From NCBI GenBank assembly GCA_002343455.1, contig DDSR01000490.1, forward strand, positions 1 to 39,565: a stretch of DNA of 39,565 bases. The letters are read 5' to 3'. Shown in pieces: positions 21,602-38,101 of the stretch. This stretch comes from Deltaproteobacteria bacterium UBA2385 (lineage in GTDB: Bacteria > Myxococcota_A > UBA796 > UBA2385). The notes under the pieces are model-generated. The model was not told the origin of the DNA. It worked only from the letters and a program-made list of their open reading frames with translations, and made no database searches. The translations under genes and the position numbers were made by a program. Positions within the stretch are counted from its first letter, which is position 1. Each line of letters begins with the position of its first letter.

Positions 21602-24055
21602 TCACTCCTCCCCGCCATCGGGCGTGTCGCGGTGCGGGACGATCAGCGGCTGCTGACCGGCGGGAGCCTCGGGTTGGCGGTAGAGCTCGTCGAAGCGCAC
21701 CGGCTCGACCGTCCACTCCACGAAGCGGTCGCGCCGCAGCACCTCGCGCCCCTTGCCGCCGCGGGCCGCCTCGTACTTGTTGGGGCGGACCACCTCTTCC
21801 CGGCCCTGGCGGGTCTTGACCACCACGCCCCCCATCTTGTCGCGGGCCAGGCCGAAGGCCATCACACGGTCCTCTGCGGTCAGCTTGATGGCCGTCACAC
21901 CCTTGGCGGCCCCCTTGGCGAAGCTGATCTCCATCACCGGGAAACAGAGCGCCCGGCCCTCGACCGTGGCCAGGCTGACATTCTCACTGCCGTCGGCGAT
22001 CAGCACAGCGATCACGCCGTCCCCGGCCTCGTCCGGCTTCAGATAGCGGCGGCCCGCGCGGGTGCTGGGCTCGGCGTGCGAGTTGAGGTCGAAGCGCACG
22101 CAGCGGCCCTTGCGGGTCAGGGCCACGCCCCAGGGAGGCGGTGTCTCATCCGTCATGAGGCCGGCCATCCAGCCCGGGCTGAGCTTCGGCAGAGCGCGGC
22201 GGTCGTTGACCACCACGCCGATCACCCGCTCTCCGTCGCTGAACTTGAAGTGCCGTTGTACCGGCTCGCCATGGCCGGTCGTCGCCGTGATGCCGTCCAG
22301 GCGAAGCACATAGGCGCTGCCCTGGTCGGTGTAGAAGGTCGCCGTGCTGCGAGTACCGGCCCGTGCGATCCAGCCGATCGCGTCGCCCTCGCGGATGCGG
22401 ATCTTGTCGATGCCGGTGAAGCTGCTCTGCCGCTTGATCCAGCCGTCGCGGGTCACGATCAGGAAGGTCTCTTCGTCGACGATGTAGGCCGACTCGTCGA
22501 AGGCGGCCACCGCCGCCTCTTCCCCGCCCAGCTCGGTGCGGCGCTTCTCGCCGTAGGTCTTGCGGATCTCCAGCAGCTCGGCCCGCACCACCGCCCACAG
22601 CTCGGCATCGCTGGAGAGGATCGCCTGGATCCGCGCCGCCTCGGCCCGCTTCTCGGCCAGCTCGGCCCGGATCTCCAGGATCGAGAGCTTGGCGAGCTTG
22701 TAGAGCTGGAGATCCAGCACCGCCTCGGCCTGCACATCGGAGAGGTCGAAGCGCGCGATCAGCCGCTCGGCGGCGTCCCGCTTGCCGTCCGAGGCGCGGA
22801 TCAGCCGGATGGCCTCATCCAGCGCGTCGAAGAGGATGACCAGCCCTTCCAGGATGTGGATGCGCTCCAGCAGCTTGCGCAGCTCGTACTCGAAGCGCCG
22901 CCGCACCGTCAGGAAGCGGAAGTCCAGCCAGTGCCGCAGCATCGCCCGCAGGTCCAGCCGCTCGGGCGCGCCCACCAGCGGGTTCTCGGTCGGCACCAGG
23001 GCCGTCATGTTGACCGGGAAGGTCGTCTGCAAGGGCGTGTGCTTGCAAAGGAAGGCCATGGCCGCGTCGGCGTCCTGCTGGACCCCGGCCACGTCCCCGG
23101 CGCTGCGGCGGCTGCGCAGCTCGCAGACCACCCGGATCTCCTCGGTCGACTCGTCCCGCACGTCCACGAGCTGGGGCAGGCGCCGCTCGGCGACGAGCTG
23201 CCCGATCTTCTCGACCAGGCTGGCCTTGTTCACGCCGTAGGGGATCTCGGTGATGATGACGTGGTCCTTGCGGGAGACATGCTCCAGCACCCAGCGGCCG
23301 CGCAGGCGCACGCTGCCGTGACCGGTCTCGTAGATCTCCCGCAGCTCCAGGGCCGAGTTGAGGATCACCCCCCCGGTCGGGAAGTCGGGCGCCTTCAGCT
23401 TGCGGCAGAGGGCGCTGACGTCGGCGTCGGGCTGGTCGATCAGCAGCACCGCCGCGTCGATCACCTCGCGCAGGTTGTGGGGCGGGATGCGGGTCGCCAT
23501 GCCGACGGCGATGCCCTCGACCCCGTTGACCAGCAGCTGCGGGAACTCGGCCGGCAGGACCACCGGCTCCTGGTGCTGGCCGTCGTAGTTGACCCGGAAG
23601 TCGACGGTCTGCTTGCCCAGCTCGTCCAGCAGCTCCATCGCGATCGGCCGCAGCTTGCACTCGGTGTAGCGCATGGCCGCCGCGCCATCGCCGTCCAGGC
23701 TGCCGAAGTTGCCCTGGCCATCGACCAGCGGGTGCAGCAGGCTGAAGGGCTGCGCCATGCGGACCATGGCGTCGTAGATGCTGGTGTCGCCGTGCGGATG
23801 GTACTTGGCCATCACCTCGCCCACGACCGCCGCGCTCTTGCGGAAGCGCTCCTCGGGCCGCAGGCGCAGGTTGTGCATCATCGCGTAGAGGATGCGGCGC
23901 TGCACCGGCTTGAGGCCGTCGCGCACATCGGGCAGGGCCCGGGCCGTGATGACCGACAGCGCGTAGTTGAGGTAGCGCTCGCGCGTCGCCTCGTGCAGCG
24001 CGACCGTATCGCCGCTGGGGGGGTCGTCGTGGGGAGGATCGTCGTGGAGGGTCAT
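21602..24055 (-). CDS. parC: Type IIA topoisomerase DNA-cleavage subunit (ParC/GyrA)
   Basis: Protein of 817 residues. The N-terminal breakage-reunion domain has [32 protein letters not shown], the quinolone-pocket segment [19 protein letters not shown] with Thr at the position of GyrA Ser83, and the catalytic Tyr in [11 protein letters not shown]. The coiled tower and a C-terminal beta-propeller follow. A canonical GyrA box is not found where expected, but ARGGKG occurs near the end (about 764-769). Together with the ParE-sized partner this favours topoisomerase IV over gyrase. The ATG at 24055 has no clear ribosome site and is preceded by a purine/pyrimidine tract with a G-quadruplex motif. 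It is 238 bases downstream of asd on the same strand. Confidence 0.9.
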
Positions 24056-24062
24056 CGGCGGA

Positions 24063-24087
24063 GGGTCGGGAGGGAGAGGGAGAGGGG
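24063..24087 (+). other. G-quadruplex motif just upstream of parC
   Basis: Five runs of three or four G separated by 2, 1, 3 and 3 bases lie on the plus strand, 8-32 bases before the parC ATG, so on the template strand for parC transcription. The purine bias continues to about 24115. Quadruplex formation behind or under RNA polymerase could respond to supercoiling. Confidence 0.5.
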
Positions 24088-24293
24088 CAGCGGGAGGCGG
24101 GAAGAGCGGCGGGAGCCCCTTCCTGCCACGGCGGGGCCGAGATGTCCAGCCGGAGCGCGAGGGTCGCTCGGACGGAATTTGTCCGGGGCGCGCGGAGGCA
24201 GCCAGAAGACCACGGACCCTGGAGCGGACCGCGCGGAGCGGCGTCGCACATTTGGGTTGATCAACGGCGGTCCGAGCTCAGGCCCGCCCGCAC
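24088..24293. other. Gap between asd and parC
   Basis: With the G-rich tract before it this gap totals 238 bases and has no credible gene. It holds a perfect 10-bp palindrome GTTGATCAAC (24256-24265) in an AT-richer patch and a weak stem CGGAC/GTCCG around GAATTT near 24169-24187, which could end asd transcription. No convincing -35/-10 pair for parC is visible. Confidence 0.35.
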
Positions 24294-25352
24294 TCATCCG
24301 CGCCCACTGACCCCCGGCACCAGCCCCCGCTCCACCAGCAGCTCGGCGTTTCCGATCGCCGCACCCGCCGCCCCCCGCACCGTGTTGTGCGCCAGGGCGT
24401 AGAACTTCAGCCCCATCACCGCACACTCCTCCAACCGACCGACCGTCACGGCCATGCCTCCGCCGGCGTCGACGTCGAAGCGGGTCGAGGGCCGATCCCG
24501 GCGCTCGGTCAGCTCCAGCAACGGCCGGGGCGAAGAAGGCAGGCCCTGCACCTCTCCCTGCCACTCGCGCATGGCCTGGGCGGCCTCCGCCACCGAGGGC
24601 GATCCCTGCAGCCGCGCGTGTACGCCGACCAGGTGCCCGTCGGCGGTCGGCACCCGCACGCAGCGGGCGCTGACGGCGAAGTCGGCGGGCTGGCCGGGCT
24701 GGCCGAGGATCTTCTGCGGCTCGACGTTGAGCTTGTCCTCTTCGTCCCCGGGGTGGGGGTGGACGCTGCCGACCATGTCCCAGGCGCTCTCGCCGGGGTA
24801 GCCCGCCCCGCTGACCGCCTGCCAGGTGCTGACCAGCAGGGCCTGCACCGGCCAGCGCGCATGCAGGGGGGCCAGGGCCAGGGCCAGCGGCAGGGCGCAG
24901 CAGTTCGGGTTGGCGAGGATGTAGCCCCGATCGGGGTCCCCGCCGGTCTGCCGATCGAGCAGGGCGAGGTGCCCCGGGTTGAGCTCGGGGATCACCAGCG
25001 GCACATCGGGGTCGGCCCGGAAGGCCGAGGCGTTGGTGACGACGGCGAAGCCCGCCTCGCGGAAGAGGGGCTCCAGCTCGCGCGCGGCGCCGCTGTCCAG
25101 CGCGCTGAGCACCAGCCGCACTCCCGCGGGCATTGCCTCGGGCCGGCAGGGGAGGACCTGCATGGCCGCGACCTGGGGAGGACAGCGGCCCGGCAGGCGC
25201 CAGGGCGCGGCCTGGTCGAAGCGCTGACCGGCCGAGCGCTCGCTGGCGGCGAGGGCGACCAGCTCGAACCAGGGGTGGTCCTGGAGGAGCTGGATCATGC
25301 GCTGGCCGACCATTCCGGTCGCGCCGAGGATGGCGATGGGGGTGCGGGTCAT
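24294..25352 (-). CDS. asd: Aspartate-semialdehyde dehydrogenase, archaeal/fungal-type subfamily
   Basis: Protein of 352 residues. It reduces aspartyl phosphate to aspartate semialdehyde with NADPH, for lysine, methionine, threonine and diaminopimelate synthesis. It begins with the nucleotide-binding ILGATGMVGQRMIQLL and WFELVALAASERSAGQRF. The catalytic Cys is in ANPNCCALPLALAL, preceded by VIPELNP, and the active-site His is in RVPTADGHLVGVHARL. These forms fit the archaeal/fungal-type branch, not the Escherichia coli type. The ATG at 25352 gives a normal-length protein. It is divergent from the CsbD-like gene and upstream of the topoisomerase genes on the same strand. Confidence 0.92.
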   Translation of the reverse strand: MTRTPIAILGATGMVGQRMIQLLQDHPWFELVALAASERSAGQRFDQAAPWRLPGRCPPQVAAMQVLPCRPEAMPAGVRLVLSALDSGAARELEPLFREAGFAVVTNASAFRADPDVPLVIPELNPGHLALLDRQTGGDPDRGYILANPNCCALPLALALAPLHARWPVQALLVSTWQAVSGAGYPGESAWDMVGSVHPHPGDEEDKLNVEPQKILGQPGQPADFAVSARCVRVPTADGHLVGVHARLQGSPSVAEAAQAMREWQGEVQGLPSSPRPLLELTERRDRPSTRFDVDAGGGMAVTVGRLEECAVMGLKFYALAHNTVRGAAGAAIGNAELLVERGLVPGVSGRG

Positions 25353-25402
25353 GAGGCTGCTGCTAGCCCGATCCGCGCGCCGCGCCGAACGGTGGGGTTG
25401 CC

Positions 25403-25426
25403 GTTGTCTTTCTCCTTCAGGTGTAT
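25403..25426 (+). promoter_or_regulatory. Stress-sigma-like promoter candidate for the CsbD gene
   Basis: GTTGTC (25403-25408), 12 bases, then GTGTAT (25421-25426) resembles a SigB-type GTTT-N12-GGGTAT arrangement in a locally AT-rich stretch; a sigma-70 reading (TTGCCG 25398, TATAGC 25423) has an over-long 19-base spacer. Known CsbD genes are stress-induced. Weak evidence. Confidence 0.3.
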
Positions 25427-25461
25427 AGCCACTACCCAAGGGCCATCGCGAGATGCCCCTA

Positions 25462-25535
25462 CCGGTCGGTCCCGACCGGGGACACGCTGGCCCACCCCCC
25501 TCGTACTGGGAGGCGGCCAGAGGTCTGTCCAGACC
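25462..25535 (+). promoter_or_regulatory. Two hairpins in the leader of the CsbD gene
   Basis: CCGGTCGG (25462-25469) pairs with CCGACCGG (25472-25479), and GGTCTG (25522-25527) with CAGACC (25530-25535). Both lie in the roughly 200-base region between the divergent asd and csbD-like starts, the second 20 bases before the ATG. They could be operators or RNA structures. Confidence 0.4.
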
Positions 25536-25555
25536 ATCCCCCAATGGAGTCCACC

Positions 25556-25861
25556 ATGACGACATCGAACACGAGTGCGCGCGCGGACGGCAAGGCCAAG
25601 GAGATCGGCGGCACCATCAAGAAGAAGGTCGGTGTCCTCATCGGCAACGAGCAGATGCAGGCCGAAGGCAAGGCCAAGGAGCTGCAGGGCAAGTCCAAGC
25701 AGGCGACGGCCAAGGCCGGCGAGCGCGTCAAGGGCACCATGGAAGAGCTGACCGGCGGCGTGAAGGGCAAGGTCGGCGATCTGATCGGCAACGAGCAGAT
25801 GGAAGCCGAGGGCAAGGCGCGGAAGCTGAAGGGTCAGCTCCGGCAGAAGATCAACGAGTAG
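25556..25861 (+). CDS. CsbD-like stress protein with two repeats
   Basis: Protein of 101 residues, highly charged and Lys/Glu/Gly-rich, matching the CsbD family (general stress response, function unproven). Two copies of the domain are present: KEIGGTIKKKVGVLIGNEQM with AEGKAKELQGK, and LTGGVKGKVGDLIGNEQM with AEGKARKLKGQ. The DNA of the two copies is also similar, for instance around ATCGGCAACGAGCAGATG, indicating a duplication inside the gene. Usual CsbD proteins have one such unit in about 60-70 residues. The ATG at 25556 has GGAG seven bases upstream. It stands alone, with a structured leader, and is followed after 69 bases by pfaD. Confidence 0.88.
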   Translation: MTTSNTSARADGKAKEIGGTIKKKVGVLIGNEQMQAEGKAKELQGKSKQATAKAGERVKGTMEELTGGVKGKVGDLIGNEQMEAEGKARKLKGQLRQKINE

Positions 25862-25912
25862 CGGGCGACCAATCCCGAGCAGGAGGACGGTCAGGCACAG
25901 CGGAGCGCCCCG

Positions 25913-25925
25913 CACGATACGCTCC
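25913..25925 (+). promoter_or_regulatory. Promoter-like element CACGATACGCTCC, copy 2
   Basis: Identical to 4722-4734. The TACGCT it contains (25918-25923) ends seven bases before the pfaD ATG at 25931 with no ribosome site between, so a leaderless message is possible. Confidence 0.4.
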
Positions 25926-25930
25926 GCCCC

Positions 25931-27784
25931 ATGTCTGACCGCGCCGAACACCTCCTGCAGCTCACCCGCGCCCGCCGCGTCACCTTCTCCACCGGGGGCC
26001 AGGCCAGCGGGCCCGGCGGGGGCCTCGCCGCCTCGGTCGACCGCCTCGGCATGCCGGCGATGGCCGCCGACCTCGCCGAGGGCGAGGAGCTGCGGCTGGA
26101 GGACGAGGGGGTCAGCCTGGTCCTGCGGCGCGAAGGGCCCGCCCACGGCCGGATCCGGGTGAGCTGGGAGGGCGGGCCCTCCTACGAGGAGCAGCTCGTC
26201 CTGCCTCCGCTCGCCGCGGCTCCCCTCCCCGCTCCGGCACCCCAGCCCTCTCCCTCCTCCTCCCAGCCCGTCCCGGCCTCCGCCCTAGCATCGCTAGACT
26301 CCCCCCTCTGGGCCCACGCCGACGGCCTCTACGGCGACGGGCCCGGCCCCGGACCGCTGCGCGCCTTCATCCCCCCGACCCCCACCTCCAGCCTGGGCTC
26401 GGCCTCCTTCCTCCAGGCCCACGGGGTGCGGGCGACCTACGTCGCCGGGGCGATGGCCGGCGGCATCTCCAGCGAGGAGCTGGTGATCGCGATGAGCAAG
26501 GCGGGGATGCTGGCCTGCTTCGGCGCCGGAGGGCTCTCGCTGGAGCGGGTCGAGCAGGCGGTCGAGCGCTGCCGAACAGCGCTAGGCAGCGCTCCCTACA
26601 GCTTCAACCTGCTGCACAACCCGGTCGAGCCCCAGGTCGAGGAGCGCACGGTCGACCTGTACCTGAAGGGCGGCGTGCGGACGATCTCCGCCAGCGCCTA
26701 CATGCGCCTGACCCCGGCGGTGGTGCGCTTCCGTCTAGCAGGCATAGGTCTGGAGGGGGGGCAGATCCGGACCCCCCATCGGGTCATGGCCAAGGTCAGC
26801 CGACCCGAGGTGGCCGAGCAGTTCTTCCGTCCCGCCCCCGAGGCCATCCTGCGCGAGCTGGTGGCCAGCGGCGCCATCAGCGAGGCCCAGGCGAAGCTGG
26901 CGGCCCAGGTGCCGGTGGCCGAGGACGTCACGGTCGAGGGCGACAGCGGCGGCCACACCGACCACCGACCGCTGGTAGCCCTGCTCCCGGTGATCCGGCG
27001 GCAGCGCGATCGTATCGCCACCGAGCAGGACTACGCCTCCCGCGGGATCCACCTGCGGGTCGGCGCAGGCGGCGGCCTGGGCGACCCCAGCAGCGTCCAC
27101 GCGGCCTACGCGCTGGGCGCCGACTACGTCATGACCGGCTCGATCAACCAGAGCTGCGTGGAGGCCGGCACCAGCGACGTGGTGCGGCAGATGCTGGCCC
27201 AGGCCGGCATCGCCGACTGCACCACCGGACCGGCCCCCGATATGTTCGAGCTGGGCGCCCACGTCCAGGTGCTGGGCAGGGGCAGCATGTGGGCCCAGCG
27301 GGCCCAGCGCCTCTACGAGATCTACCGCAGCGCAGAGGGCCTCGACACGATCCCCGCCGCCGAGCGCGAGCGCATCGAGAGCCAGATCATGCGCCGCCCC
27401 CTGGCCGAGGTCTGGGCCGAGACCGCCGCCTTCTGGGCCGAGCGCGACCCGCGCGAGCTGGAGCGGGCGCAGAAGGACGAGAAGCACCGGATGGCCCTGA
27501 CCTTCCGCTGGTACCTGGGCATGTCCAGCCGCTGGGCGCGCAACGGCGACGCCGAGCGCAAGCGGGACTACCAGATCTGGTGCGGGCCGGCGATGGGCCT
27601 CTTCAACGACTGGGTCCGCGGCACCTGGCTGGAGCCCCTGCCCGCGCGCGGGGTGGTCGAGGTGGCCCACGCCCTGCTGCACGGGGCGGCCGTGCTGCGC
27701 CGGGTGGACGCCCTGCGCGGCGCCGGGATGGCGGTGCCGCCCGAGCTGGACACGCCAGCCCCCTGGCGAGGAGCTGCCCGATGA
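25931..27784 (+). CDS. pfaD: PfaD-type enoyl reductase (2-nitropropane dioxygenase-like, FMN)
   Basis: Protein of 617 residues. It has the complete PfaD pattern: GAMAGGISSEELVIAMSKAG followed by MLACFGAGG, YSFNLLHNPVEP, GVRTISASAYMRLTPAVVRF, VEGDSGGHTDHRPL, GAGGGLGDPSSVHAAYALGA, MTGSINQSCVEAGTSD and the late YQIWCGPAMGLFNDWVRGTW. PfaD reduces enoyl intermediates in trans during polyunsaturated fatty acid or trans-AT polyketide synthesis and normally sits in pfaABCD or PKS clusters; none is seen here. The N-terminal 110 residues plus a Pro/Ser linker are extra. Several CTA leucine codons in CTAG contexts stand out. The stop overlaps the next ATG (ATGA). Confidence 0.92.
   Translation: MSDRAEHLLQLTRARRVTFSTGGQASGPGGGLAASVDRLGMPAMAADLAEGEELRLEDEGVSLVLRREGPAHGRIRVSWEGGPSYEEQLVLPPLAAAPLPAPAPQPSPSSSQPVPASALASLDSPLWAHADGLYGDGPGPGPLRAFIPPTPTSSLGSASFLQAHGVRATYVAGAMAGGISSEELVIAMSKAGMLACFGAGGLSLERVEQAVERCRTALGSAPYSFNLLHNPVEPQVEERTVDLYLKGGVRTISASAYMRLTPAVVRFRLAGIGLEGGQIRTPHRVMAKVSRPEVAEQFFRPAPEAILRELVASGAISEAQAKLAAQVPVAEDVTVEGDSGGHTDHRPLVALLPVIRRQRDRIATEQDYASRGIHLRVGAGGGLGDPSSVHAAYALGADYVMTGSINQSCVEAGTSDVVRQMLAQAGIADCTTGPAPDMFELGAHVQVLGRGSMWAQRAQRLYEIYRSAEGLDTIPAAERERIESQIMRRPLAEVWAETAAFWAERDPRELERAQKDEKHRMALTFRWYLGMSSRWARNGDAERKRDYQIWCGPAMGLFNDWVRGTWLEPLPARGVVEVAHALLHGAAVLRRVDALRGAGMAVPPELDTPAPWRGAAR
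26578..26593. repeat. AGCGCT inverted pair with CTAG inside pfaD
   Basis: AGCGCT, AGGC, AGCGCT forms a six-base stem within coding sequence and uses the rare leucine codon CTA. A related motif, CTAGC-ATC-GCTAG, lies near 26285-26297 in the same gene. Confidence 0.45.
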
Positions 27785-28365
27785 CCCCGATGGACATCTA
27801 CAAGCGGGCCTGGGAGGAGATCCAGCCTCACCTGATCGGCTGGATCGTCTTCTACACGGTCTTCACGGCGATCACCTTCGCCACCTGCGGCCTGGGCGGG
27901 CTGCTGATGCCAAACGTCATGCGCGAGCTGCGCGACACCCGCCTGGAGGGCCGGGGGCCCTCGATCGGCCGGCTCTTCGACATGCAGCGCGCCGCCAACG
28001 ACCTGGTCAACTACCTGATCTGGTACGGCGCCATCATCGTCGGCAGCGCCGCGGGCGGCATCGGGGGCACCATCGCCGCGGTCGCCCTGCAGTTCCAGAT
28101 GGCCCTGGCCGCCGACGACCGCTACGCCCCGATGGACAACGCAAAGCTCTCGATGAAGCACGTCGGCGCGCACCTGGGCGACCACGTGATCTTCATGGTC
28201 ATCAGCTCGGCGATGGCGATGTTCGCCGTGATGCTCTGCCTGCTGCCCCTGCCGCTGATCGGCCCCATCATGGGGATGGCCACCTGGCTCTGGTACGAGC
28301 AGTCCCGGGAGGAGCTGGAGCGCATGGCCGCCGAGGGCGGGATCAAGCAGCTCAGCGTTTCCTGA
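27781..28365 (+). CDS. Small membrane protein coupled to pfaD, function unknown
   Basis: Protein of 194 residues, not recognised. It has about four hydrophobic segments: GWIVFYTVFTAITFATCGLG, LIWYGAIIVGSAAGGIGG running into TIAAVALQFQMAL, and VIFMVISSAMAMFAVMLCLL followed by PLPLIGPIMGMATWLWY. The end is charged (EQSREELERMAAEGG). The pattern recalls membrane proteins of the DUF4013 kind but no family is claimed. The ATG overlaps the pfaD stop, so the two are translated together and probably act together, perhaps anchoring the reductase at the membrane or handling its lipid product. Its TGA is directly followed by the stop of the opposing gene. Confidence 0.75.
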   Translation: MTPMDIYKRAWEEIQPHLIGWIVFYTVFTAITFATCGLGGLLMPNVMRELRDTRLEGRGPSIGRLFDMQRAANDLVNYLIWYGAIIVGSAAGGIGGTIAAVALQFQMALAADDRYAPMDNAKLSMKHVGAHLGDHVIFMVISSAMAMFAVMLCLLPLPLIGPIMGMATWLWYEQSREELERMAAEGGIKQLSVS

Positions 28366-28373
28366 TCACTCAG
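28362..28373. terminator. Palindromic zero-gap convergent stops TGATCA
   Basis: The TGA of the membrane protein (28363-28365) and the TGA of the opposing gene (read from 28368-28366) together form TGATCA; CTGA/TCAG at 28362-28365 and 28370-28373 can form a small four-base stem. A weak structure. Confidence 0.25.
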
Positions 28374-29076
28374 CCAACAACGGCCCCCAGGCCCGGGCGG
28401 CGACCTGGAGCTCGTAGGCGACGCGGTCCTTGTGCTCGGGCAAGCCCTGGGCCCAGAGCAGGGCCTGGGTGGAGAGGCCCGAGAGGCGCGGGGCCAGCTC
28501 GCTGCCGCGCACGACGAAGTCGGCCTGCTGCCGGGCCTGGCCGGAGAGGGCGCCGAGCAGGGAGGCGACCTCGTCGACCCGGCCCTCGACCAGCATGGCG
28601 TGCAGGCCGATCAGGCGCTGCTGGGCCCAGGAGCGGGCCGCCTCGATCCGCCGGGCGGGGGCGCCAGGGTCCTCGTCGACGCTGCCCGGCGTGAACTCGG
28701 TGACGGCCAGGAAGAGCTTGCCGCCGCCGCCGGTCGGCGCGGCGTAGAGGAACTGGGCGTTGACGAGCTGGGCGGACTGGCCGGCCAGCTCCTGGGCGAG
28801 GTCCTCGTCGACCTCGGCGAGGTAGGGCTCCTCGCCCTCGGGCCCCGGCAGGCAGGGCACCCCTGCCTTCTGGAAGGCCTCGATCGCCTCGGCCCACATG
28901 ATACTGTGGTTGGTGGCGGCCCAGGAGAGGATCGCGCGGCAGCGGGCGTGGGCGACGATGCGGCCGTCCCCGTCGGTCCAGTGCATCCGGCCCTCGGGCA
29001 GGGCGGCGGCGAAGTCCTTGACCCCCAGCGAGTCGAAGAGGGACTGGACTTCCTTGAACTTGAGCGGCTCGGGCAT
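28366..29076 (-). CDS. Soluble protein of unknown function
   Basis: Protein of 236 residues without signal peptide or membrane helix; not recognised. It is acidic and Trp-containing, with the segments MHWTDGDGRIVAHARCRAIL, SWAATNHSIMWAEAIEAF, AQFLYAAPTGGGGKLFLAV and a helical C-terminal half rich in Ala, Leu and Gln (ARSWAQQRLIGLHAMLVEGR). The paired statement-like WTD, SW and MWAEA elements look like a domain of unknown function seen in uncharacterised cytosolic proteins. The ATG at 29076 has GGAG five bases upstream and is 63 bases from the divergent MNIO gene, so both may share a control region, with TAGCCT as a possible -10 on this strand. Confidence 0.7.
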   Translation of the reverse strand: MPEPLKFKEVQSLFDSLGVKDFAAALPEGRMHWTDGDGRIVAHARCRAILSWAATNHSIMWAEAIEAFQKAGVPCLPGPEGEEPYLAEVDEDLAQELAGQSAQLVNAQFLYAAPTGGGGKLFLAVTEFTPGSVDEDPGAPARRIEAARSWAQQRLIGLHAMLVEGRVDEVASLLGALSGQARQQADFVVRGSELAPRLSGLSTQALLWAQGLPEHKDRVAYELQVAARAWGPLLAE

Positions 29077-29139
29077 GAAGACTCCACGGGGTCGGCAGAG
29101 GCTAACGCAGGCGGAGGGCGGCAGGTTACCGGGCGCGCC

Positions 29140-30822
29140 ATGGCTCTGCACGACGCCACCTTCCTCGACCGCCTCCCTGCGCTCCCCCGGCTCGGGCTGG
29201 GGATCTCGACCGAGCACGGCGCCGGCGATCGCCCCGGGGCGCTGGACCTGCTCGCCTTGCGCGCGGGGCACCCCCACCTCGCCGGCTTCCTGGAGGTCGG
29301 CCTCGAGGTGGAGCGGGGCTTCGACCGGCACACCCGGGCCTGGATCGAGGCCGGCGGCCGGACCACCCTGCACTTCCTGGATCTGAACCTCGAAGACCCC
29401 CAGGACCTCGACCCGACCTGGCTGGCGGGCTTCCGGGCGGCCATCGGCCAGCTCCGGCCGGCCTGGATCTGCGGGGACGCCGGGCTCTGGCACACGGGCG
29501 GGCGAGAGCGTGGACAGATGCTGCTCCTGCCGCCGATCCTGACCGACGAGAGCGCCCGGCAGATGGCCGAGGGCATCATCGCTCTGCGCGAGGCGACCGG
29601 GCTGGAGGTCCTGCCCGAGAACCCGCCGGGCACCGTCTACGTCGGCGATCTACACCTGATCGAGTTCTTCGCCCGACTGTGCGAGTACGCCGATACGGGG
29701 ATGCTGCTGGACCTCGCCCACCTCGCGATCTACCAGGCCGCCAGCGGCCACGAGCTGATGGACGGGCTGGACAGCCTGCCGGCCGACCGGGTGATCGAGT
29801 GTCATATCGCCGGGGGTGTGCACCGCGAGACGCAGGGCTGGCCCTGGATCGACGACGACCACGGCACCGACATCCTGCCGCAGACCTGGGCCCTGACCGA
29901 CGCGGTGCTTCCCCGGGCGCAGAACCTGCGCGCCATCGTCTACGAGTGCGAGCGCAACCCGCTGGAGGCCTGCCTGCCCGGCCTGCGGGAGATCAACGCG
30001 CGCTGGCAGGGAACCGTCCTCCGCCCGGTCGCCCGCCGCCCGGCCCTGCCCCCGGCTCCGAGCCCTCCCCGGGATCCGCGTCGCATCCAGCGGGCGGTGG
30101 TCAGCCTGTTGCACGATCCGACCCTAGAGGACTTCCCCACGCTCACCGAGGCCGAGCGCGCCCTGCTGCGGGACATCGAGCCCCGGGCCCTGCGGACCGA
30201 CCCATACCGTCGCGGGCGGGTGCTGACGGCCCTGCTGGAGGAGGCGCCGACCAGCGCCGCCCTGGCCCTGGGCGGCGAGCCTGCCGCCGCCCTGGATGAC
30301 TTCTTCTCCAGTAAGCGTTTCCACCGGGCCGTCGCCGAGGAAGAACGCTTCGCCCTGGCCTTCCTGGACTGGCTGCAGCCCAAGGCCGGGGGGCTCGCCC
30401 TGCTCGAAGCCGCCATCGCCCGGGCCCGTCGGGACCCTCCTCGTCAGGCCGGGACGCTGCTCCAGCGCGCGCCCGGCCTGCTGCCGGTCTGCCTGCCCGC
30501 GGGAACCCTGGCCCGCTTCGCCTCCCTCTCGCAGCAGCTCGGGACCGAGCCCCTAGCAGCGCTAGCGGAGGGCCTCCCGGTGACGCCCCCTCCCCTGGAG
30601 AGCGGGGAGGAGTGGCTGCTGGTCGACCTGCGCGCCGGCCTCTCCGAGTGCGGGGAGGAGCTGGCCCGCTTGATCCTGGCTGCGGACCAGCCCCAGAGCG
30701 ACGAGCACCTCGTCCAGCTCGCCCGGGAGCTCGGCGCCGACGACGCCGCCGCCGAGGTGATCGCCGACCTGGTGGCCGACGGCAGCCTCGTGCCCGCGGG
30801 AGGCGCCCTTGTCTCTCGCTGA
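29140..30822 (+). CDS. DUF692/MNIO iron oxidase fused to a helical partner-like domain and a PqqD/RRE-like C-terminus
   Basis: Protein of 560 residues. Residues 1-290 fit DUF692 (multinuclear non-haem iron-dependent oxidase): LGLGIS, FLEVGLE (50-56), LHFLDL with His78, CGDAGLWH (111-118), the LPEN pair (158-161), MLLDLAHLAI, ECHIAGG (220-226), IDDDHG (237-242) and YECERNP. After a Pro-rich linker (about 293-312) a helical region begins with SLLHDPTLEDFP, ERALLRDIEPRAL and RRGRVLTALLEEAP, similar in style to HvfC/DUF2063 partner proteins. From 487 on, EEWLLVDLRAG plus three helices ending in IADLVADGSLVP looks like a PqqD/RRE winged helix. MNIOs modify ribosomal peptides; here enzyme, partner and recognition parts seem fused. 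It overlaps a 127-aa gene. Confidence 0.82.
   Translation: MALHDATFLDRLPALPRLGLGISTEHGAGDRPGALDLLALRAGHPHLAGFLEVGLEVERGFDRHTRAWIEAGGRTTLHFLDLNLEDPQDLDPTWLAGFRAAIGQLRPAWICGDAGLWHTGGRERGQMLLLPPILTDESARQMAEGIIALREATGLEVLPENPPGTVYVGDLHLIEFFARLCEYADTGMLLDLAHLAIYQAASGHELMDGLDSLPADRVIECHIAGGVHRETQGWPWIDDDHGTDILPQTWALTDAVLPRAQNLRAIVYECERNPLEACLPGLREINARWQGTVLRPVARRPALPPAPSPPRDPRRIQRAVVSLLHDPTLEDFPTLTEAERALLRDIEPRALRTDPYRRGRVLTALLEEAPTSAALALGGEPAAALDDFFSSKRFHRAVAEEERFALAFLDWLQPKAGGLALLEAAIARARRDPPRQAGTLLQRAPGLLPVCLPAGTLARFASLSQQLGTEPLAALAEGLPVTPPPLESGEEWLLVDLRAGLSECGEELARLILAADQPQSDEHLVQLARELGADDAAAEVIADLVADGSLVPAGGALVSR
30553..30565. repeat. CTAGC-AGC-GCTAG motif inside the MNIO gene
   Basis: A five-base perfect inverted pair around AGC, written with CTA leucine codons that are otherwise rare in this window. 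The same layout with ATC as the centre occurs in pfaD near 26285-26297. Confidence 0.45.
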
Positions 30823-31192
30823 GACAGCGCGGCGCTTCCGGGCCACCGCCACCCCCCCGGCGACCCAAGCCCAGGTCCGCGCCGAGCTGCGCCTCGCCCG
30901 CCGCCAGCTGCTTCGCGCCCGGGCCGAGGCGGCCCGCCCCCACGTCAGCGAGGCCCACGACGCCAGCCAGAACAGCCCCCTGCTGCACTGCCGCGCCCAC
31001 GCCCAGCGCCTGGCCCTCCACCTGCTCGACGGTCGGCCTGCCCTCGCCCTGCGCGAGCTCCCCCTCTGCCTGATGGCCGCCCCGGCCGCCTTCGTCCGCC
31101 GCGCCGCCGGCCTCGCCCCGGGTCAGCCCGGGGGGGTCGGCCTCCTCGCTACCTGGCGAATGCGCCACACCCTGGATCCCCCATGCGCCTGA
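30809..31192 (+). CDS. 127-aa orphan protein in the MNIO operon
   Basis: Protein of 127 residues, not recognised. The TTG at 30809 has GGGAGG six bases upstream and lies 14 bases inside the end of the MNIO gene; its stop lies 10 bases inside the pseudouridine synthase gene, so it is translationally locked between them. The sequence is helical and Arg/Ala/Leu-rich (VRAELRLARRQLLRARAEAA) with three cysteines, in LLHCRAH, LPLCLM and at the very end, DPPCA. No signal peptide or membrane segment is seen. It could be an accessory protein, or a substrate of the MNIO enzyme because of the terminal Cys; neither is shown. Confidence 0.65.
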   Translation: MSLAETARRFRATATPPATQAQVRAELRLARRQLLRARAEAARPHVSEAHDASQNSPLLHCRAHAQRLALHLLDGRPALALRELPLCLMAAPAAFVRRAAGLAPGQPGGVGLLATWRMRHTLDPPCA

Positions 31193-32121
31193 TCGATCTC
31201 CTGATTGCCCGCGGCCTCTCCCGCGGCGACGCCCGTCGGGCCTTGCAGTCCGGCAAGGTCTCGCTCGACGGCGTGCCCACCGCCGACTCCGGTCGAGAGG
31301 TCGAGGACGACCCCCGGGTGCGCTACGACCCCAACGCCCCGCGCCTGACCCCGGGCCGCGACCTGGTCGTCCTGCGCAAGCTGCCCGGCCTCGTCGTCGC
31401 CTGGAAGCCGACCGGGATGCTGTCGGTGCCCGCGCCGCGCGAGGGCGGCCACAAGAACGCTCTGGCGATGATCCGACGCTGGTTCGGCGCCGGCCTGCCC
31501 GTACACCGCCTGGACGAGGACACCAGCGGTCTGTTCATGGTCGCCCTCGACGAGCCCACCCAGCTCGGGATGAAGGAGCTGCTGGAGCGCCACGAGGTCC
31601 ACCGCGGCTACCTCGCCCTGGTCGCCCAGCACTTCCCCCGCGGCGCATGGAGCGTCGAGAGCGAGTTCGTCCGCGATCGCGGCGACGGCCTGCGGGGCAG
31701 CCGGGTCATCCCCGCCGCGCCGGGCAAGCCCCCCAAGCCGCGGCGCTTCCAGCCCGAGCCCGACCAGGAGACCCGCCGGGCCGTCACCCACTTCTCCCTG
31801 GTCGAGAACCTCGCCCGCGACGCCGCCCTGATCTCCTCCCGCCTGGAGACCGGCCGCACCCACCAGGTCCGCATCCACCTCGCCGAGATCGGCCACCCCG
31901 TGCTGGGCGATCCTCTGTACGCGACCCGCCGGATCGCCGCCCGCGCCCCGCGGCTGGCCCTGCACGCCAGCCGGCTGGCCTTCACCCACCCGCTGACGGG
32001 CGAGGCCGTCGAGGTGGTGGCTCCGCTGGCGGACGACCTGGAGGCGCTGCGGCGCAGCCTGAGCGCGCGAGAGGAGGAGGACCAGCCCCCTACCAGACGA
32101 GCACGCGCAGGCGGTCGGTAG
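31183..32121 (+). CDS. RNA pseudouridine synthase, RluA/RluD family
   Basis: Protein of 312 residues. An N-terminal S4 domain (LIDLLIARGLSRGDARRALQ, GKVSLDGVPT) is followed by the catalytic domain: LVVAWKPTGMLSVP, the signature LPVHRLDEDTSGLFMVA with the catalytic Asp, and SSRLETGRTHQVRIHLAEIG then HPVLGDPLY. It converts uridine to pseudouridine in rRNA or tRNA. An extra loop (VIPAAPGKPPKPRRFQPEPD) separates catalytic elements. The ATG at 31183 overlaps the end of the 127-aa gene. The 3' end runs 32 bases into the convergent alpha-2-macroglobulin gene. Target position cannot be deduced. Confidence 0.93.
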   Translation: MRLIDLLIARGLSRGDARRALQSGKVSLDGVPTADSGREVEDDPRVRYDPNAPRLTPGRDLVVLRKLPGLVVAWKPTGMLSVPAPREGGHKNALAMIRRWFGAGLPVHRLDEDTSGLFMVALDEPTQLGMKELLERHEVHRGYLALVAQHFPRGAWSVESEFVRDRGDGLRGSRVIPAAPGKPPKPRRFQPEPDQETRRAVTHFSLVENLARDAALISSRLETGRTHQVRIHLAEIGHPVLGDPLYATRRIAARAPRLALHASRLAFTHPLTGEAVEVVAPLADDLEALRRSLSAREEEDQPPTRRARAGGR

Positions 32122-35100
32122 CGCTGCGGCCGAAGGTCTCGGGCTGGTACATCTCCTCGGCCCGCGCAGGCGGCACGATGTAGCTGCCCGGCGTGGTCGC
32201 CCGCGCGACGTAGCTGTACTCGTACACGCCGGCCGGCAGGTAGGCGGTGAAGGCCTCGGCCCGCTCGTCGCGCAGGTTCTGGTGCTGGTACCAGGGGCCC
32301 CACCACCACCCGCGGCCCTCCTCCCTCGCAGCGGTCGGCACGTCCTCGCTGACGGCCAGGGCGGCGTTGATGGCCTCCAGGCCGGCGGCCAGCGGGTCGA
32401 CCAGGGCGACGTGGGTGCGGCGGCTGTCGGCGACCATGCTCAGCTTGACGCGGACCCGGGCCCCGGCGCGGACCTCCCAGGCGCCGTCCTCGGCCCGGCG
32501 CAGGTCCGTGGGATCGTCGACGGCCTCGAAGGTGCGCAGCACGACGAAGCCGCGGTCGGCGGCCTCCAGCTCAAGGCTCTTGGGGGCGTAGCGCAGGCCC
32601 AGGCGGTAGTACAGTCGGCCGCTGCCTTCGCGCTGCAGCAGCAGATCGGCTCCGGAGGAGGCCAGCTCGGACAGATCGGCCATCGGCACGCTCAGGCTGA
32701 CGTTCTCGGCGGTGCGGCCCTTGAAGGCATGCTGGCCGGCGAAGGCGGGGCCGAGCCAGGCGCGGGCGACGAAGTCGGGGGTCTGGGCTTCGTAGGTCTG
32801 GAAGTAACGATCCAGGGCCAGCAGGACGAAGGCGTTCTCCTGGGTGCTGCCCCAGCGGCCCTTGACCCGGTGGCCCAGCAGGCCACGCACCAGGGCGGGA
32901 GGCAGGTCGCTGTCCGGCGCGACCCGCAGCAGGGCTTCGAGGACCGCGGCGTCGGTGCGACGGTCGCTGTGCAGCAGCAGGTAGGCGCCTTCGCCGTAGG
33001 TGGTGGTGAAGGTGGCGGTGGCGGCCGTCTGGTCGAGGCGGCTGTTGAAGAAGGCGAGGATCTCGGTGACGGCCTTGGCCTCGCCGCCCGCGTGCAGGGT
33101 CGGCAGCAGCCAGGCCTTCGCTTCGATGGAGAGGTCCTCGCGGGACAGCGCCAGGGCCGCGCGAGCGTCGGCGTCGCCCAGCAGCTCGCGGACGTAGAGC
33201 GCATAGGCCTGCAGGCTGTGGCGCACGGCGACAGGGTAGTCCGCGGGGATGTGTCGCTCGATGACCCGCAGGTAGGCCAGCGATCGGCTGCGCATCTGGG
33301 GCGGCACGGCGAAGCCCTTGGCCTCGGCGCGGGCCAGGGCGTGGGCGACATGCAGGCTGACGTAGGGCCAGCTCTGTTCACCTTGACGCCAGAAGCCGAA
33401 GCCTCCGTCCCCGTTCTGCTGGCGGGCCAGCTCGGCGATGTCCACCTCGACGGCGGCCTGGAGGGCCTCGGCCGAGGGGAGGTCGGGAACGGCGAAGGCG
33501 GTCAGCACATCGCGCAGGGCGGCGATGGCCAGCACCCGGGAGGCGCGCTGCTCGGCGCAGAGGAAGGGGTAGTCGACCAGGTAGATCAGGGCGTCGGTGA
33601 GGGCCTGCAGGGCGGTCGAGGAGGTCGAGATCTCCAGCCCGCCGTGCTCGGGCCAGACCTCGGCGGGGGCCTGGATCCGGTAGGAGGCGAGGCTCTCGTC
33701 GCCGCCCAGATCGCCGTAGGTGGCGAAGGCCTCGGCGGTGGCCGGGGTCCAGACGGGCAGGCTGAGCATGGCGGCGTCGGCGCCCTTCAGGCTGGAGCCC
33801 TTGCCGCTGCTCTGGCCACTGATCGCGGCCTGGACGGTGGCGGTGCCGACGGAGTCGGCCAGGGCGGGCAGGCGGACCTCGACCCGATCGCGGGCGGGGA
33901 CCTCGAACTGCAGGCCCGTGGCGGGCAGCTCCAGCCCGGAGCCGCGGGCGGCGAGGACGACGCTCATGGGCTGGTCGGTCTGGTTCTGTACGACGAAGGG
34001 CAGCTCGGCTTCGTCGCCCAGGTTGAGGAAGCGCGGCAGCGAGGGCCGCAGCATCAGGGGCAGGCGGGCGGTCAGGGTGGTCTCGGCCGAGCCCATCTTC
34101 TGCCCGCCGTGTACGGCGAGGACGGTGACCCGGTAGCGGGTGAGGTTGTCGGGCAGGGTGACCGGGACGGAGAGGCGGCCCTGGGCGTCGGTGCGGCCCT
34201 CGGGGAGGAAGAGGGCCAGGGCGGAGAGGTCGCTGCGCAGGGCGATCGCGGGGCCCGAGGGGTCGGCCTCGGCGTTCTTCTGCTGAACGCCGGCGGCCAT
34301 CGGCGAGGGCGGGGGCATGGCGCCGTCTGCTGCGTATCCCAGGCTCCGAAGCTCCATGCTGGACTCGGCCACCATACCGAAGGGCTCCTCCGGCGGGAGC
34401 ATCCCCGTGGCGTCGCCCCCCTGGGGATCGCCCAGCCAGACCAGGGCGCGCAGATGCTCCTCGCGCACATCGCCGCTGCGCTGCACGTAGAAGGCCGCCA
34501 GCGGATCAGCGATGCGGTAGCCGGTCAAGGCCAGCACCGCCTCGTCGACCACGACCACGACCAGCTCGGCGCCCGAGACCGGCGCTCCGGCGGCGTCCTT
34601 GACCTGCAGGTCCAGCGCGGTGCGAGCTCCGGGCTCCAGCTCGGGCTGCTGGGGCGAGAGCTGGACCTGGAGGGCGCGCTGCAGCGGCGGGACCTCGATG
34701 GAGAGGGTGCCGCGGGCGAATGCGGGGCGAGTAGGACCGTCCGGCAGGCCCTGGCGCTCGGCCTGGCCGACCAGGTCGACCTGGAGCTCCAGATTGGGCA
34801 CGTGGGCGTCCAGCAGGGGCAGGGTCAGGACGGTGCTGTCGCCCTCGATCGTGAAGGCGCGGGTCTCCAGCAGGCCGCTGCGGCGGACGGTCAGCACGCC
34901 GCTGGCCGGGCCGAACGGGCTCTGCACGAGGATCTCGGCGCTGTCCCCGGGGGCATAGTCCTCCTTGTCGGGGATCAGCAGCACGCTCTCCAGCGGCAGG
35001 CCGCGCTCCTCGGGCACCGCGCCGGTGTCGCCGGCCACCCACAGGCTCAGCTCGGTGCGGTTGGGGCGGCCCTCTTCGTCGGTGACGGTGGCCTGAACGG

Positions 35101-38100
35101 TGTAGCGACCGCCCAGGGTCGGCCTGAAGCTGCAGGACTGGGGCTCGTCCCCGCTGCTGCTGCGCTCGCAGCCGCCGCGGTCCTGCTCCTCCTCTACAAA
35201 GGCGCCGCGCTTGTCGCGCAGGCTGCGGGTGGTCCACCAGCTCAGGTTCAGCGCACGCCCTCGCAGGACGGCTCCGTCGATGTCGACGGCGATGGCCTCG
35301 ACCTCGACCTCCTCGCCGACCCGGCCGTAGGCGCGATCCAGCTTGAGGCCGACGTAGGCCCGCCCCGGGTGGACGAGCAGGGAGGTGGAGGCCGCCCAGG
35401 CCTGCCGGTTCACGTCTTCCACGACGGCCTGGGCCTGGACCTGGACCGGGCGCGGGGTGCCCAGGGCGGCGAAGTGGATGTCCAGGTGGTGGTCGCCCTG
35501 GCTGTCGGTGCGGGCCTGGAAGGCCTCGGGCGCCGGCAGGGGCGGCTCGGGAGGGGCCCACCAGCTGCCCCACCAGCGAGGGACCCAGACGCCGAACTGC
35601 CAGCCCTCGTGGCCCGGCGGGCGATACTCGGCCCAGGAGGGGCTCAGCCGCCAGGTGGTGCTGGCGTTCGGCAGCCCACCGCCGGCGTAGTAGCGAGCCG
35701 AGACGGTGGCGGTGGCGCGCTCGCCCAGCATGTGGGGCCCCGGCGAGGCCGAGGCGCTGACCTCGTACTCGGGCCGCCGGAACTCCTGGACCTCGAAGCT
35801 GTGGGAGGTGGCGTCCTGGTCGAAGCCGCCGCCGTCGACGCTGAGCTGGACCCAGGCGCTGCCGAGGTTGATCGTGTCGGGCAGGGCCAGCCGGAGATCG
35901 AAGCCGCCCCGGGCGCTCAGCGCGGCGGTGCCCTTGCTGATCTCGGCCCCTCGCGCGTCGTTGAGCACCCAGCGCAGGCCTCGCACGGTCTCGGCCAGGC
36001 CCAGATCCCCCTGCGGGCCGGCGCCCACCCGGCGCAGCCAGCCCTTGATCCGCACCTCCTCGCCCGGCTTGTACATCTTGCGGTCGTCGAAGACGAACCA
36101 GCTCAGCGAGTCGGAGGGCTCCTGACGCAGCCAGGAGGCGTCGTCGCGGTAGCCGCCGTCCAGGGCCAGCAGGGCGCTGTCCTCGCCGCGGCGGGCGATC
36201 AGGACCTGCGGTCCGCTCCCCGAGGCGGGCAGCGCCCCTCGGGCGAGGCCCTGGGCGTCGGTCTCCAGGCGAGGGCCAGTCGGCTCCAGGGTGAGGCTGG
36301 CTCCAGAGATCGGCGCGCCGGTGCTCAGCTCGTTGACCCAGCCGACCATGGTGGCAGCGTCAGCCCAGGCGGCCAGCCCGAGCGAGGTCCGCTGCGCCCA
36401 GACGGCCGACTGTTGCCGCCCCCGGTCGCTGTCCTTGTACTCCAACCAGACCAGCAGGTGGCCGGGTCCCTCGCCCAGGTGGGGGGCGAGATCGACCACG
36501 GTCTCGACCAGGCGGTCCGGCTCGGCGGCGATCGGGAGCTGCCGGTCCACCAGCCGGACGCCCGGCGGCTCGCTCATGGCCTGGCGCCCATCCCACCAGG
36601 CCCGCTGGTTCCTCCAGGCCCGGTAGGCGGCATGGTCCTCGGGCTGCACCCGCTGGACCCGCAGCCGCACCCGGTCGAGGTTGACCGTGTAGAAGGCCAG
36701 CGAGGGCGCGGCCTGCGGGTCCAGCACCCGCAGCTCGGGACCGGGCACGAAGAGCGTCGGGCTGGCCGGCTGGCCCTCGCCGGTGGTGACGGAGGTCTGG
36801 ACGGCCTTGGCGGGCTGCTGGCCGTAGATGTCGCGCAGCTCGTTGGAGACGGTGATCGTGTAGCGGGTGCGGGCCTGCTTCAGGCCGTCGATCTGGATGC
36901 TGGAGCCGCTGACGTAGATCTGGGCCTGGGGGAGCTGCGGCTCGATCTGGACGAAGGAGGTCTCGAAGCGCTCGGCGTCGAGCGGGTTGCTCATCACCAG
37001 GGAGACGGTGTCCCAGGGCGAGCACTGTTCACGGTAGCCGCAGCGGGTCGACTCCAGGCCGAGCGGGCCGTAGGTCTGGAAGGAGAAGCCCTGATCCGTC
37101 GTCGTCCGCAGCGGCCCCTCGGCGGAGGAGCTGCCGGCGGGCAGGACCAGGGTGAAGCGGGTGTCGCCGGGCAGCTCCGTGACCGGCTCGACCGCCAGCC
37201 AGCGACCGGGACCGCGGGCCTCGCTGGCCTCGACCAGGGGGCGCAGCTCCTCGCCCGGGGTGGCCTCGCGCAGGGGGAGACGCTTGCCGCCGGCTTCGAG
37301 GCGCAGCCCCTCGCGCAGGGCAGAGGGGTCGATCTGCTGGTCGAAGGCCAGGAAGAGCGTCGGCTGCAGGGAGGTGGGGACAGCGCCCGGAGAGGAAGCC
37401 ACCAGCTTCGGCGGCGGCGTGCGCAGGGTGGCGACGAATTCCTCGGCCAGTTTGCTCCCGTCGGCAGCCGCCGTGCCGGCCGGTACGCGGAGCTGGAACT
37501 CCGTGGCCATCGGCAAGCGACCGCCCTGGCCGGAGGGTTCGAAGATCAGGGTGCGCGTGCCCAGCCAGCGCCACTGGCCCTCGGGCTGAGGGCTGAGGAC
37601 CGCCGGCACGACCCTGGCCGCCTCATCCTGGGACATCAGGGCCACGAAGGGGCGGTCGAAGGTCAGCGACAGGTGCGGCGCCAGCTCGACCTCTCCTTCG
37701 GGCGAAGCACGCAGGACCCTCAGCGGCCCGCTCACCGCTGTGGGGGCTTCGGGCTGCTCGGCAGGGGGAAAGGCGAGCTCGACCTCGACACCGGGGCGAG
37801 GCGCGGGGAGGCTGTCCTGCCGCCGGTTGAAGCTCTTGGCGGCCTCCTCGGGCAAGGGAGGCAGGCGGGAGAGCAGGGCCTGGACCTGCTCGGCGCTGGC
37901 GGGGCGGGTGGGGGTCTCGGGCAGCCGCTCGCCGCCGGCGCCCTGGGGGCTGGCCGAGGAGAGCTCGATTCGCAGCCCGGGTTCGTCGGTGGGGGTCTCG
38001 AAGCGCACGGGCGGGCTCCCGGAAACGATGGGGAGAGGGGCGTCGTGCTTCCCGCAGGAGAGGACGACCAGGGAGGCCAGCGTGGCGAGGCGGTGAAGCA

Positions 38101-38101
38101 T
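32090..38101 (-). CDS. Bacterial alpha-2-macroglobulin lipoprotein with intact thioester
   Basis: Protein of 2003 residues. It begins with a lipoprotein signal (LATLASLVVLSCGKH, Cys15 or 16 as the acylated residue), followed by a Pro-rich region, Ig-like BIG/MG segments (HLSLTFDRPFVAL, LFLAFDQQIDPSALREG), bacterial MG domains (FDDRKMYKPGEEVRIKGWLR), the bait region near SMELRSLGYAADGAMPPP, and FLPEGRTDAQGRLSVPVTLP. The thioester motif CAEQ is at about residue 1515 in YPFLCAEQRASR, followed by the helical TED domain (QNGDGGFGFWRQGE) and the receptor-like end. Such proteins trap proteases in the periplasm. The usual partner gene pbpC is not beside it. Convergent overlap of 32 bases with the pseudouridine synthase. 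Confidence 0.93.
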   Translation of the reverse strand: MLHRLATLASLVVLSCGKHDAPLPIVSGSPPVRFETPTDEPGLRIELSSASPQGAGGERLPETPTRPASAEQVQALLSRLPPLPEEAAKSFNRRQDSLPAPRPGVEVELAFPPAEQPEAPTAVSGPLRVLRASPEGEVELAPHLSLTFDRPFVALMSQDEAARVVPAVLSPQPEGQWRWLGTRTLIFEPSGQGGRLPMATEFQLRVPAGTAAADGSKLAEEFVATLRTPPPKLVASSPGAVPTSLQPTLFLAFDQQIDPSALREGLRLEAGGKRLPLREATPGEELRPLVEASEARGPGRWLAVEPVTELPGDTRFTLVLPAGSSSAEGPLRTTTDQGFSFQTYGPLGLESTRCGYREQCSPWDTVSLVMSNPLDAERFETSFVQIEPQLPQAQIYVSGSSIQIDGLKQARTRYTITVSNELRDIYGQQPAKAVQTSVTTGEGQPASPTLFVPGPELRVLDPQAAPSLAFYTVNLDRVRLRVQRVQPEDHAAYRAWRNQRAWWDGRQAMSEPPGVRLVDRQLPIAAEPDRLVETVVDLAPHLGEGPGHLLVWLEYKDSDRGRQQSAVWAQRTSLGLAAWADAATMVGWVNELSTGAPISGASLTLEPTGPRLETDAQGLARGALPASGSGPQVLIARRGEDSALLALDGGYRDDASWLRQEPSDSLSWFVFDDRKMYKPGEEVRIKGWLRRVGAGPQGDLGLAETVRGLRWVLNDARGAEISKGTAALSARGGFDLRLALPDTINLGSAWVQLSVDGGGFDQDATSHSFEVQEFRRPEYEVSASASPGPHMLGERATATVSARYYAGGGLPNASTTWRLSPSWAEYRPPGHEGWQFGVWVPRWWGSWWAPPEPPLPAPEAFQARTDSQGDHHLDIHFAALGTPRPVQVQAQAVVEDVNRQAWAASTSLLVHPGRAYVGLKLDRAYGRVGEEVEVEAIAVDIDGAVLRGRALNLSWWTTRSLRDKRGAFVEEEQDRGGCERSSSGDEPQSCSFRPTLGGRYTVQATVTDEEGRPNRTELSLWVAGDTGAVPEERGLPLESVLLIPDKEDYAPGDSAEILVQSPFGPASGVLTVRRSGLLETRAFTIEGDSTVLTLPLLDAHVPNLELQVDLVGQAERQGLPDGPTRPAFARGTLSIEVPPLQRALQVQLSPQQPELEPGARTALDLQVKDAAGAPVSGAELVVVVVDEAVLALTGYRIADPLAAFYVQRSGDVREEHLRALVWLGDPQGGDATGMLPPEEPFGMVAESSMELRSLGYAADGAMPPPSPMAAGVQQKNAEADPSGPAIALRSDLSALALFLPEGRTDAQGRLSVPVTLPDNLTRYRVTVLAVHGGQKMGSAETTLTARLPLMLRPSLPRFLNLGDEAELPFVVQNQTDQPMSVVLAARGSGLELPATGLQFEVPARDRVEVRLPALADSVGTATVQAAISGQSSGKGSSLKGADAAMLSLPVWTPATAEAFATYGDLGGDESLASYRIQAPAEVWPEHGGLEISTSSTALQALTDALIYLVDYPFLCAEQRASRVLAIAALRDVLTAFAVPDLPSAEALQAAVEVDIAELARQQNGDGGFGFWRQGEQSWPYVSLHVAHALARAEAKGFAVPPQMRSRSLAYLRVIERHIPADYPVAVRHSLQAYALYVRELLGDADARAALALSREDLSIEAKAWLLPTLHAGGEAKAVTEILAFFNSRLDQTAATATFTTTYGEGAYLLLHSDRRTDAAVLEALLRVAPDSDLPPALVRGLLGHRVKGRWGSTQENAFVLLALDRYFQTYEAQTPDFVARAWLGPAFAGQHAFKGRTAENVSLSVPMADLSELASSGADLLLQREGSGRLYYRLGLRYAPKSLELEAADRGFVVLRTFEAVDDPTDLRRAEDGAWEVRAGARVRVKLSMVADSRRTHVALVDPLAAGLEAINAALAVSEDVPTAAREEGRGWWWGPWYQHQNLRDERAEAFTAYLPAGVYEYSYVARATTPGSYIVPPARAEEMYQPETFGRSATDRLRVLVW

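Follow-up and report, generated by a model that had tools for sequence, protein, structure and literature searches.

A natural single-chain MNIO enzyme with predicted partner-like and RRE-like domains, a variant metal site, and a probably unlinked substrate

The stretch of DNA analyzed here (the window) comprises 39,565 nucleotides of contig DDSR01000490.1 from Deltaproteobacteria bacterium UBA2385. It contains a gene of 560 codons whose product joins a multinuclear nonheme iron-dependent oxidative enzyme (MNIO, also known as DUF692) to a C-terminal half that is predicted to consist of a partner-like helical domain and a domain resembling the recognition elements (RREs) of ribosomally synthesized and posttranslationally modified peptides (RiPPs). 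The protein belongs to a broad clade, carries a variant metal site, and probably acts on a substrate that is not encoded beside it. The features of the locus, in window coordinates, are as follows.

29140..30822, + strand: fused MNIO enzyme gene, 560 codons, ATG start (open reading frame [ORF] with the motifs in frame)
29140..30024, + strand: MNIO/DUF692 TIM-barrel domain, residues 1 to 295
29476..29478, + strand: Asp113, aligned to the TglH iron ligand His107 (alignments)
29719..29721, + strand: His194, aligned to the TglH iron-3 ligand Asn187 (alignments)
30061..30435, + strand: helical domain, residues 308 to 432, predicted to be like the TglI N terminus/DUF2063 (AlphaFold2; VIA-align with TglI and 3dee)
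30451..30804, + strand: predicted RRE-like winged-helix domain, residues 438 to 555 (VIA-align)
30809..31192, + strand: 127-amino-acid DUF3703-like gene, TTG start, judged to lie outside the conserved enzyme unit (ORF; PF12487 relatives)

An earlier note, made from the letters of the window, had read LPEN, ECHIAGG, and IDDDHG as MNIO/DUF692 motifs. This was borne out, as all three are in frame in the 560-codon gene, the base use of which is coding-like, and the protein matched PF05114 over residues 48 to 269 with 71.8 bits (cutoff, 25). A score above the curated cutoff together with a TIM-barrel fold identifies it as an MNIO. The source genome, which by kinship is that of a myxobacterium and is 87.6% complete, has no other MNIO match. 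Scores for the NCBIfam equivalogs were far below their cutoffs: 68.3 bits for BufB (cutoff, 310), 41.1 for HvfB (360), 54.7 for ApyH (400), 17.2 for ChrH (600), and 11.7 for MbnB (325).

The note had also proposed that a partner-like helical domain and an RRE-like domain follow the MNIO in the same chain, and both prediction and comparison support this proposal. A VIA search with the full-length model returned barrel matches only and was uninformative on the C-terminal half. AlphaFold2, applied to the C-terminal part, placed helices at residues of about 313 to 430, followed by strands and helices. Residues 438 to 555 were matched by VIA-align to TglI, 3dee, TigE, MibB, McbBCD, MadB, TbtB, TruD, TbiB1, and PqqD, and their predicted order of three strands followed by three helices is that of known RREs. 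Structural counterparts among partner and RRE folds were thus found for the predicted fold of residues 313 to 560, the region for which the note had suggested such a comparison. The helical domain had no Pfam family above its cutoff, and DUF2063 was absent from the 13 Pfam families matched at an E value of 0.1 by 49 partner sequences, which does not correspond to a PME-type 1 partner. The C-terminal half does share the features described for PME-type 2 partners (PMC12452194): it is encoded after the MNIO, lacks a Pfam signature, and has an NGO1945/TglI-like predicted fold. The family profile of its first 50 or so residues (window 30055 to 30210) also resembled the nitrile-hydratase-type chain 6lk7 (E value, 7e-4), and 3 of the 49 partner-half members touched Frankia_peptide (best E value, 5e-4); these likenesses may be due to chance between helical hairpins.

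To place the fused gene among its relatives, we used 377 sampled genomes of the phylum, 52 of which had a strong MNIO match (E value of 1e-70 or better). At least 24 genomes have a match to the C-terminal region that stands apart from the MNIO match and adjoins it. A homologous C-terminal part was present in 40 of 53 loci and was not found in 13, some of which are cut by the contig end. Of 89 loci found, 80 named ones were kept, giving 81 with the window. Judged by the MNIO reading frame, 9 of these 81 are fused, 71 have an early stop, and 1 could not be assigned. By position, using a simple gene caller, 58 are split and 8 fused, 9 were scored as MNIO alone or cut by the contig, and 6 had no MNIO call; in at least two of the loci (L104 and L106), the gene after the MNIO is unlike the partner. 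In 45 of the 58 split loci, the gene after the MNIO begins before the MNIO stop has ended, with an overlap of exactly 4 bases in 32. The partner alignment comprised 48 of the 58 listed partner genes, with ten excluded as truncated, near-duplicate, or doubtful.

Two further proteins, P0002 and P0003, are also fused and are 71 and 59% identical to the window enzyme. In a tree of 115 rows, in which 76 of the 81 loci (the window among them) stand beside 33 proteins picked for fused length and 6 outgroup sequences, these three form one clade with 100/100 support. The split form of the enzyme occurs within the same genus, in genome G241, and a same-genus split pair (L092) is the next neighbor of the fused group (support, 98/86). 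Across the tree, where the rows labeled split include loci without a called partner, 19 changes of the fused label are needed, at least 10 of them on well-supported branches, with a bootstrap that is not fully settled. Because of the gene overlaps in split loci, the frame counts, and the repeated switches between fused and split forms, we conclude that the MNIO and the C-terminal half work as a unit and that their union in one chain has recurred and is not an artifact of assembly. In a related MNIO group with the motif AQDV and the same Asp/His pair as described below, the MNIO is likewise naturally joined to a long C-terminal part (650 amino acids in total; L179:5517-7469, − strand).

The metal site was compared with that of TglH, in which His71, His107, Glu151, Asp184, His216, and Glu258 are ligands and Asp184, Asn187, Asp229, and His231 bind the third iron (PMC10880893). 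The corresponding positions in the window enzyme are His78, Asp113, Glu160, Asp191, His194, His222, Asp239, His241, and Glu269, so that seven of nine are identical, whereas His107 and Asn187 are replaced by Asp113 and His194. In an alignment of the window enzyme, 75 clade members, and 51 other MNIOs, the Asp/His pair was found in all 76 clade rows, one of which is gapped at the first position. The 51 nonclade sequences, drawn from the MNIO match list rather than at random from the family, divided into 39 with His/Asn and 12 with Asp/His. None was mixed, so the pair behaves as all or none. His194 was also invariant in a 56-row alignment in which the window enzyme was joined by 55 relatives with lengths of the fused type, including some truncated ones.

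The same Asp/His pattern appears in the published ligand list, rather than in an aligned sequence, of the phenylalanine ortho-hydroxylase PbsC, for which an AlphaFold3 model predicts H97, D133, E178, D213, H216, H247, D260, H262, and E290 (PMC12257519), and HvfB without its Asn175 is inactive (PMC13419390). Because PbsC shares the pattern while HvfB depends on Asn175, our guess is that Asp113/His194 could mark carbon hydroxylation as in PbsC, as opposed to the cysteine oxidation of TglH, MbnB, and HvfB. One observation weighs against this guess: in a second Asp/His MNIO group, described below, the precursors keep cysteine beside tyrosine. An essential cysteine need not be the modified residue, as ApyA shows (PMC10635010). 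As a rule, the equation of Asp/His with a noncysteine substrate was rejected, and it is kept as a guess. We found no mention of the Asp/His versus His/Asn pairing in the accessible parts of the literature searched, which is no proof of absence.

Several characterized systems resemble the window enzyme in part. TglHI, the MNIO and partner of the 3-thiaglutamate pathway, which uses a ribosomal scaffold peptide (PMC10880893), is similar by model, with a TglH barrel and a TglI helical domain plus RRE, and in the seven shared ligand positions; it differs in consisting of separate chains and in having His107/Asn187. PME-type 2 partners, for which a Plesiocystis example is named in the legend to Fig. 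6 of PMC12452194, match the C-terminal half, which in the window enzyme is fused to the MNIO. MovX, compared by its published description, is likewise a single-chain MNIO with a C-terminal winged helix-turn-helix (wHTH)/RRE, although the available parts of PMC13419390 and PMC12452194 do not attribute a helical partner domain to it. PbsC/PbsD, compared by its published ligand list, shares the Asp/His pattern in the AlphaFold3 model but is made up of two chains and has a linked precursor with an FHAFRF motif (PMC12257519). In the portion available, PMC12452194 covers the wHTH of MovX as well as MNIO-nitroreductase fusions; a chain joining an MNIO to a PME is not described there. Nor did we find a natural single chain of this kind described in the accessible parts of the other literature searched, which again does not prove its absence.

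The search for a linked substrate was carried out by clustering genes in the 80 named loci and the window. Besides the MNIO and its partner, no neighbor was kept at a fixed place. The clusters that spanned most of the 81 loci were the MNIO, its partner, and frames overlying both; the largest outside the cassette covered 14 loci, where its position varies and either strand is used, and was protein-kinase-like by eye, followed by clusters of 7 and 6. Most of the remaining clusters outside the cassette derived from five syntenic Nannocystis regions. The usual hallmark of a RiPP gene cluster, a precursor linked to the enzyme, was thus missing from the 81 loci, and precursors of the SNKEWQE or FRF type gave two chance-like matches and none that was convincing in the loci examined for them. 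Because no neighbor beyond the MNIO and partner holds a fixed place, the substrate is probably encoded elsewhere in the genome.

On balance, we favor as somewhat probable the explanation that the 560-residue chain, an MNIO followed by helical and winged-helix domains with predicted partner-like folds, holds the leader of a substrate whose gene lies elsewhere and oxidizes this substrate at the multi-iron center. The RRE-like unit would bind the leader peptide, the helical domain would keep the MNIO active in the manner of a separate partner, and the substrate, encoded in trans, would likely be oxidized at the multi-iron center, where the Asp113/His194 pair might, as a guess, direct carbon hydroxylation rather than cysteine oxidation.

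That the enzyme instead oxidizes cysteines of an unlinked cysteine-rich protein, like bufferin or methanobactin systems, appears unlikely. Cysteine is regarded as the target of most MNIOs (PMC12452194), the precursors of the second Asp/His group contain it, and cysteine-rich genes are somewhat commoner among the 139 genes adjoining the cassette (8) than among the 656 farther away (17). This enrichment is not significant (P = 0.06), however, and the eight genes are mostly unlike one another, those of L086 and L153 excepted, so they were not accepted as substrates. The source genome, moreover, had no DUF2282 match, every MNIO equivalog cutoff was missed by far, and the ligand set is unlike that of the cysteine-oxidizing TglH and HvfB. 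Other precursor searches of this genome gave two TIGR04222 matches far below the cutoff (12.6 and 11.7 versus 43 bits) and, for the NHLP leader, one weak match on the Frankia_peptide gene discussed below and one at chance level.

Less likely again is a short precursor that adjoins the cassette but varies too much between loci to be clustered. There would be space for one in 38 of 61 loci, which have a flanking gap of at least 150 nucleotides (nt) or a neighbor of 150 amino acids or fewer. The other 23, including 4 of the 5 Nannocystis loci, leave little room because both gaps are shorter than 150 nt and both neighbors longer than 150 amino acids. Short ORFs that do not belong to the cassette formed clusters of at most 4 of 53 loci, and no conserved short ORF adjoining the cassette was found in the loci clustered.

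The earlier note had pointed to the 127-amino-acid protein encoded next to the enzyme as a cysteine-ending orphan and its possible substrate. The ORF is real as described: its first 14 bases lie within the end of the enzyme gene, its base composition at the codon positions is coding-like, and its product contains three cysteines and ends in PPCA. It is no orphan, since six relatives (59 to 76% identical) exist, five of which match PF12487 (DUF3703; 25.3 bits for P0122 and 30.7 for P0125) and the sixth of which is a DUF3703 protein by its source name; the window protein itself scored 21.1 bits, slightly below the cutoff of 22.3. The word DUF3703 was not found in the literature searched. A profile built from the seven members matched at a single one of 89 distinct loci, the window itself; the other 88 are different MNIO sites, drawn from sets of 53 and 81 loci that overlap. 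Of the cysteines, the last is common to P0122 only and missing from five of six relatives, and Cys87 (LPLCLMA) is shared by three of six. Modification of this protein at its C-terminal cysteine is therefore very improbable; the gene is a neighbor by local habit, not the substrate of the class, and a red herring. The comparison of neighborhoods suggested by the note had a mixed outcome: in the loci examined, the 127-amino-acid gene never lies beside relatives of the enzyme, but a few loci do have adjacent, unrelated cysteine-rich genes.

The last candidate lies on another contig of the source genome.

L226:8688-8897 (G000:C371), + strand: 70-amino-acid Frankia_peptide (PF14407) RiPP precursor (profile match)

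Its match, the only one above the cutoff in the genome, reached 52 bits (cutoff, 48), and genome G241 of the same genus has a match as well. The family and the MNIO clade co-occur only weakly, however (10 of 52 genomes versus 36 of 325 others; P = 0.11, after the matches in G286 and G170, located on the MNIO partner gene itself, had been dropped). Close by are two genes without a Pfam match and one for an M50 peptidase; the latter hints that the precursor belongs to a separate system. This precursor is very improbable as the substrate.

In a second Asp/His MNIO group of the same phylum (motif NEDLG), precursor-like genes with CY repeats (NCYGPC and YCYNLPC) were noticed just upstream of the MNIO and partner gene (L180:6179-6742 and L181:6745-7239). 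Their profile matched in 9 of 377 genomes and in 7 of these adjoined an MNIO match among the matches listed; they are possibly a new MNIO precursor family. The source genome is not among the nine, and they were rejected as the window enzyme's substrate. They came to light through reading of the genes and a subsequent profile, whereas the window clade was searched by clustering. The case shows that precursor-like genes can be seen in this phylum; it does not show that the clustering would catch every one.

Elsewhere in the window, a PfaD-family gene lies at 25931 to 27784 on the + strand (TIGR02814, 606.8 bits); no other gene of polyunsaturated fatty acid synthesis was noticed among the ORFs of 24000 to 36000, which were searched in part. 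A membrane protein gene (27766 to 28365) and a DUF6882-like gene on the − strand, divergent from the enzyme gene (28366 to 29106), also occur at the same-genus MNIO locus, where they are 66 and 80% identical, respectively. An ORF of 2,003 amino acids (32090 to 38101, − strand) encodes what we take by eye to be a lipoprotein resembling bacterial alpha-2-macroglobulin (CAEQ motif).

The natural fusions supply enzyme and partner in a 1:1 ratio without further engineering; for the study of HvfBC, an artificial fusion was made with HvfB ahead of HvfC, as here, and it is active (PMC13419390). The all-or-none ligand swap provides a direct handle on what determines MNIO chemistry. MNIO substrates are normally assigned via an adjacent precursor gene. 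That a large clade has the partner and the RRE-like domain yet lacks a linked precursor would point to targets encoded in trans, perhaps entire proteins, a suggestion already made for some MNIOs whose precursor is not easily found (PMC12452194). We raise it as a tentative possibility that the widespread Asp/His clade (Myxococcota, Planctomycetota, Acidobacteriota, and others) is a stand-alone, often single-chain protein hydroxylase acting in trans. If true, MNIO chemistry would serve ordinary cell proteins, beyond the peptides of gene clusters.
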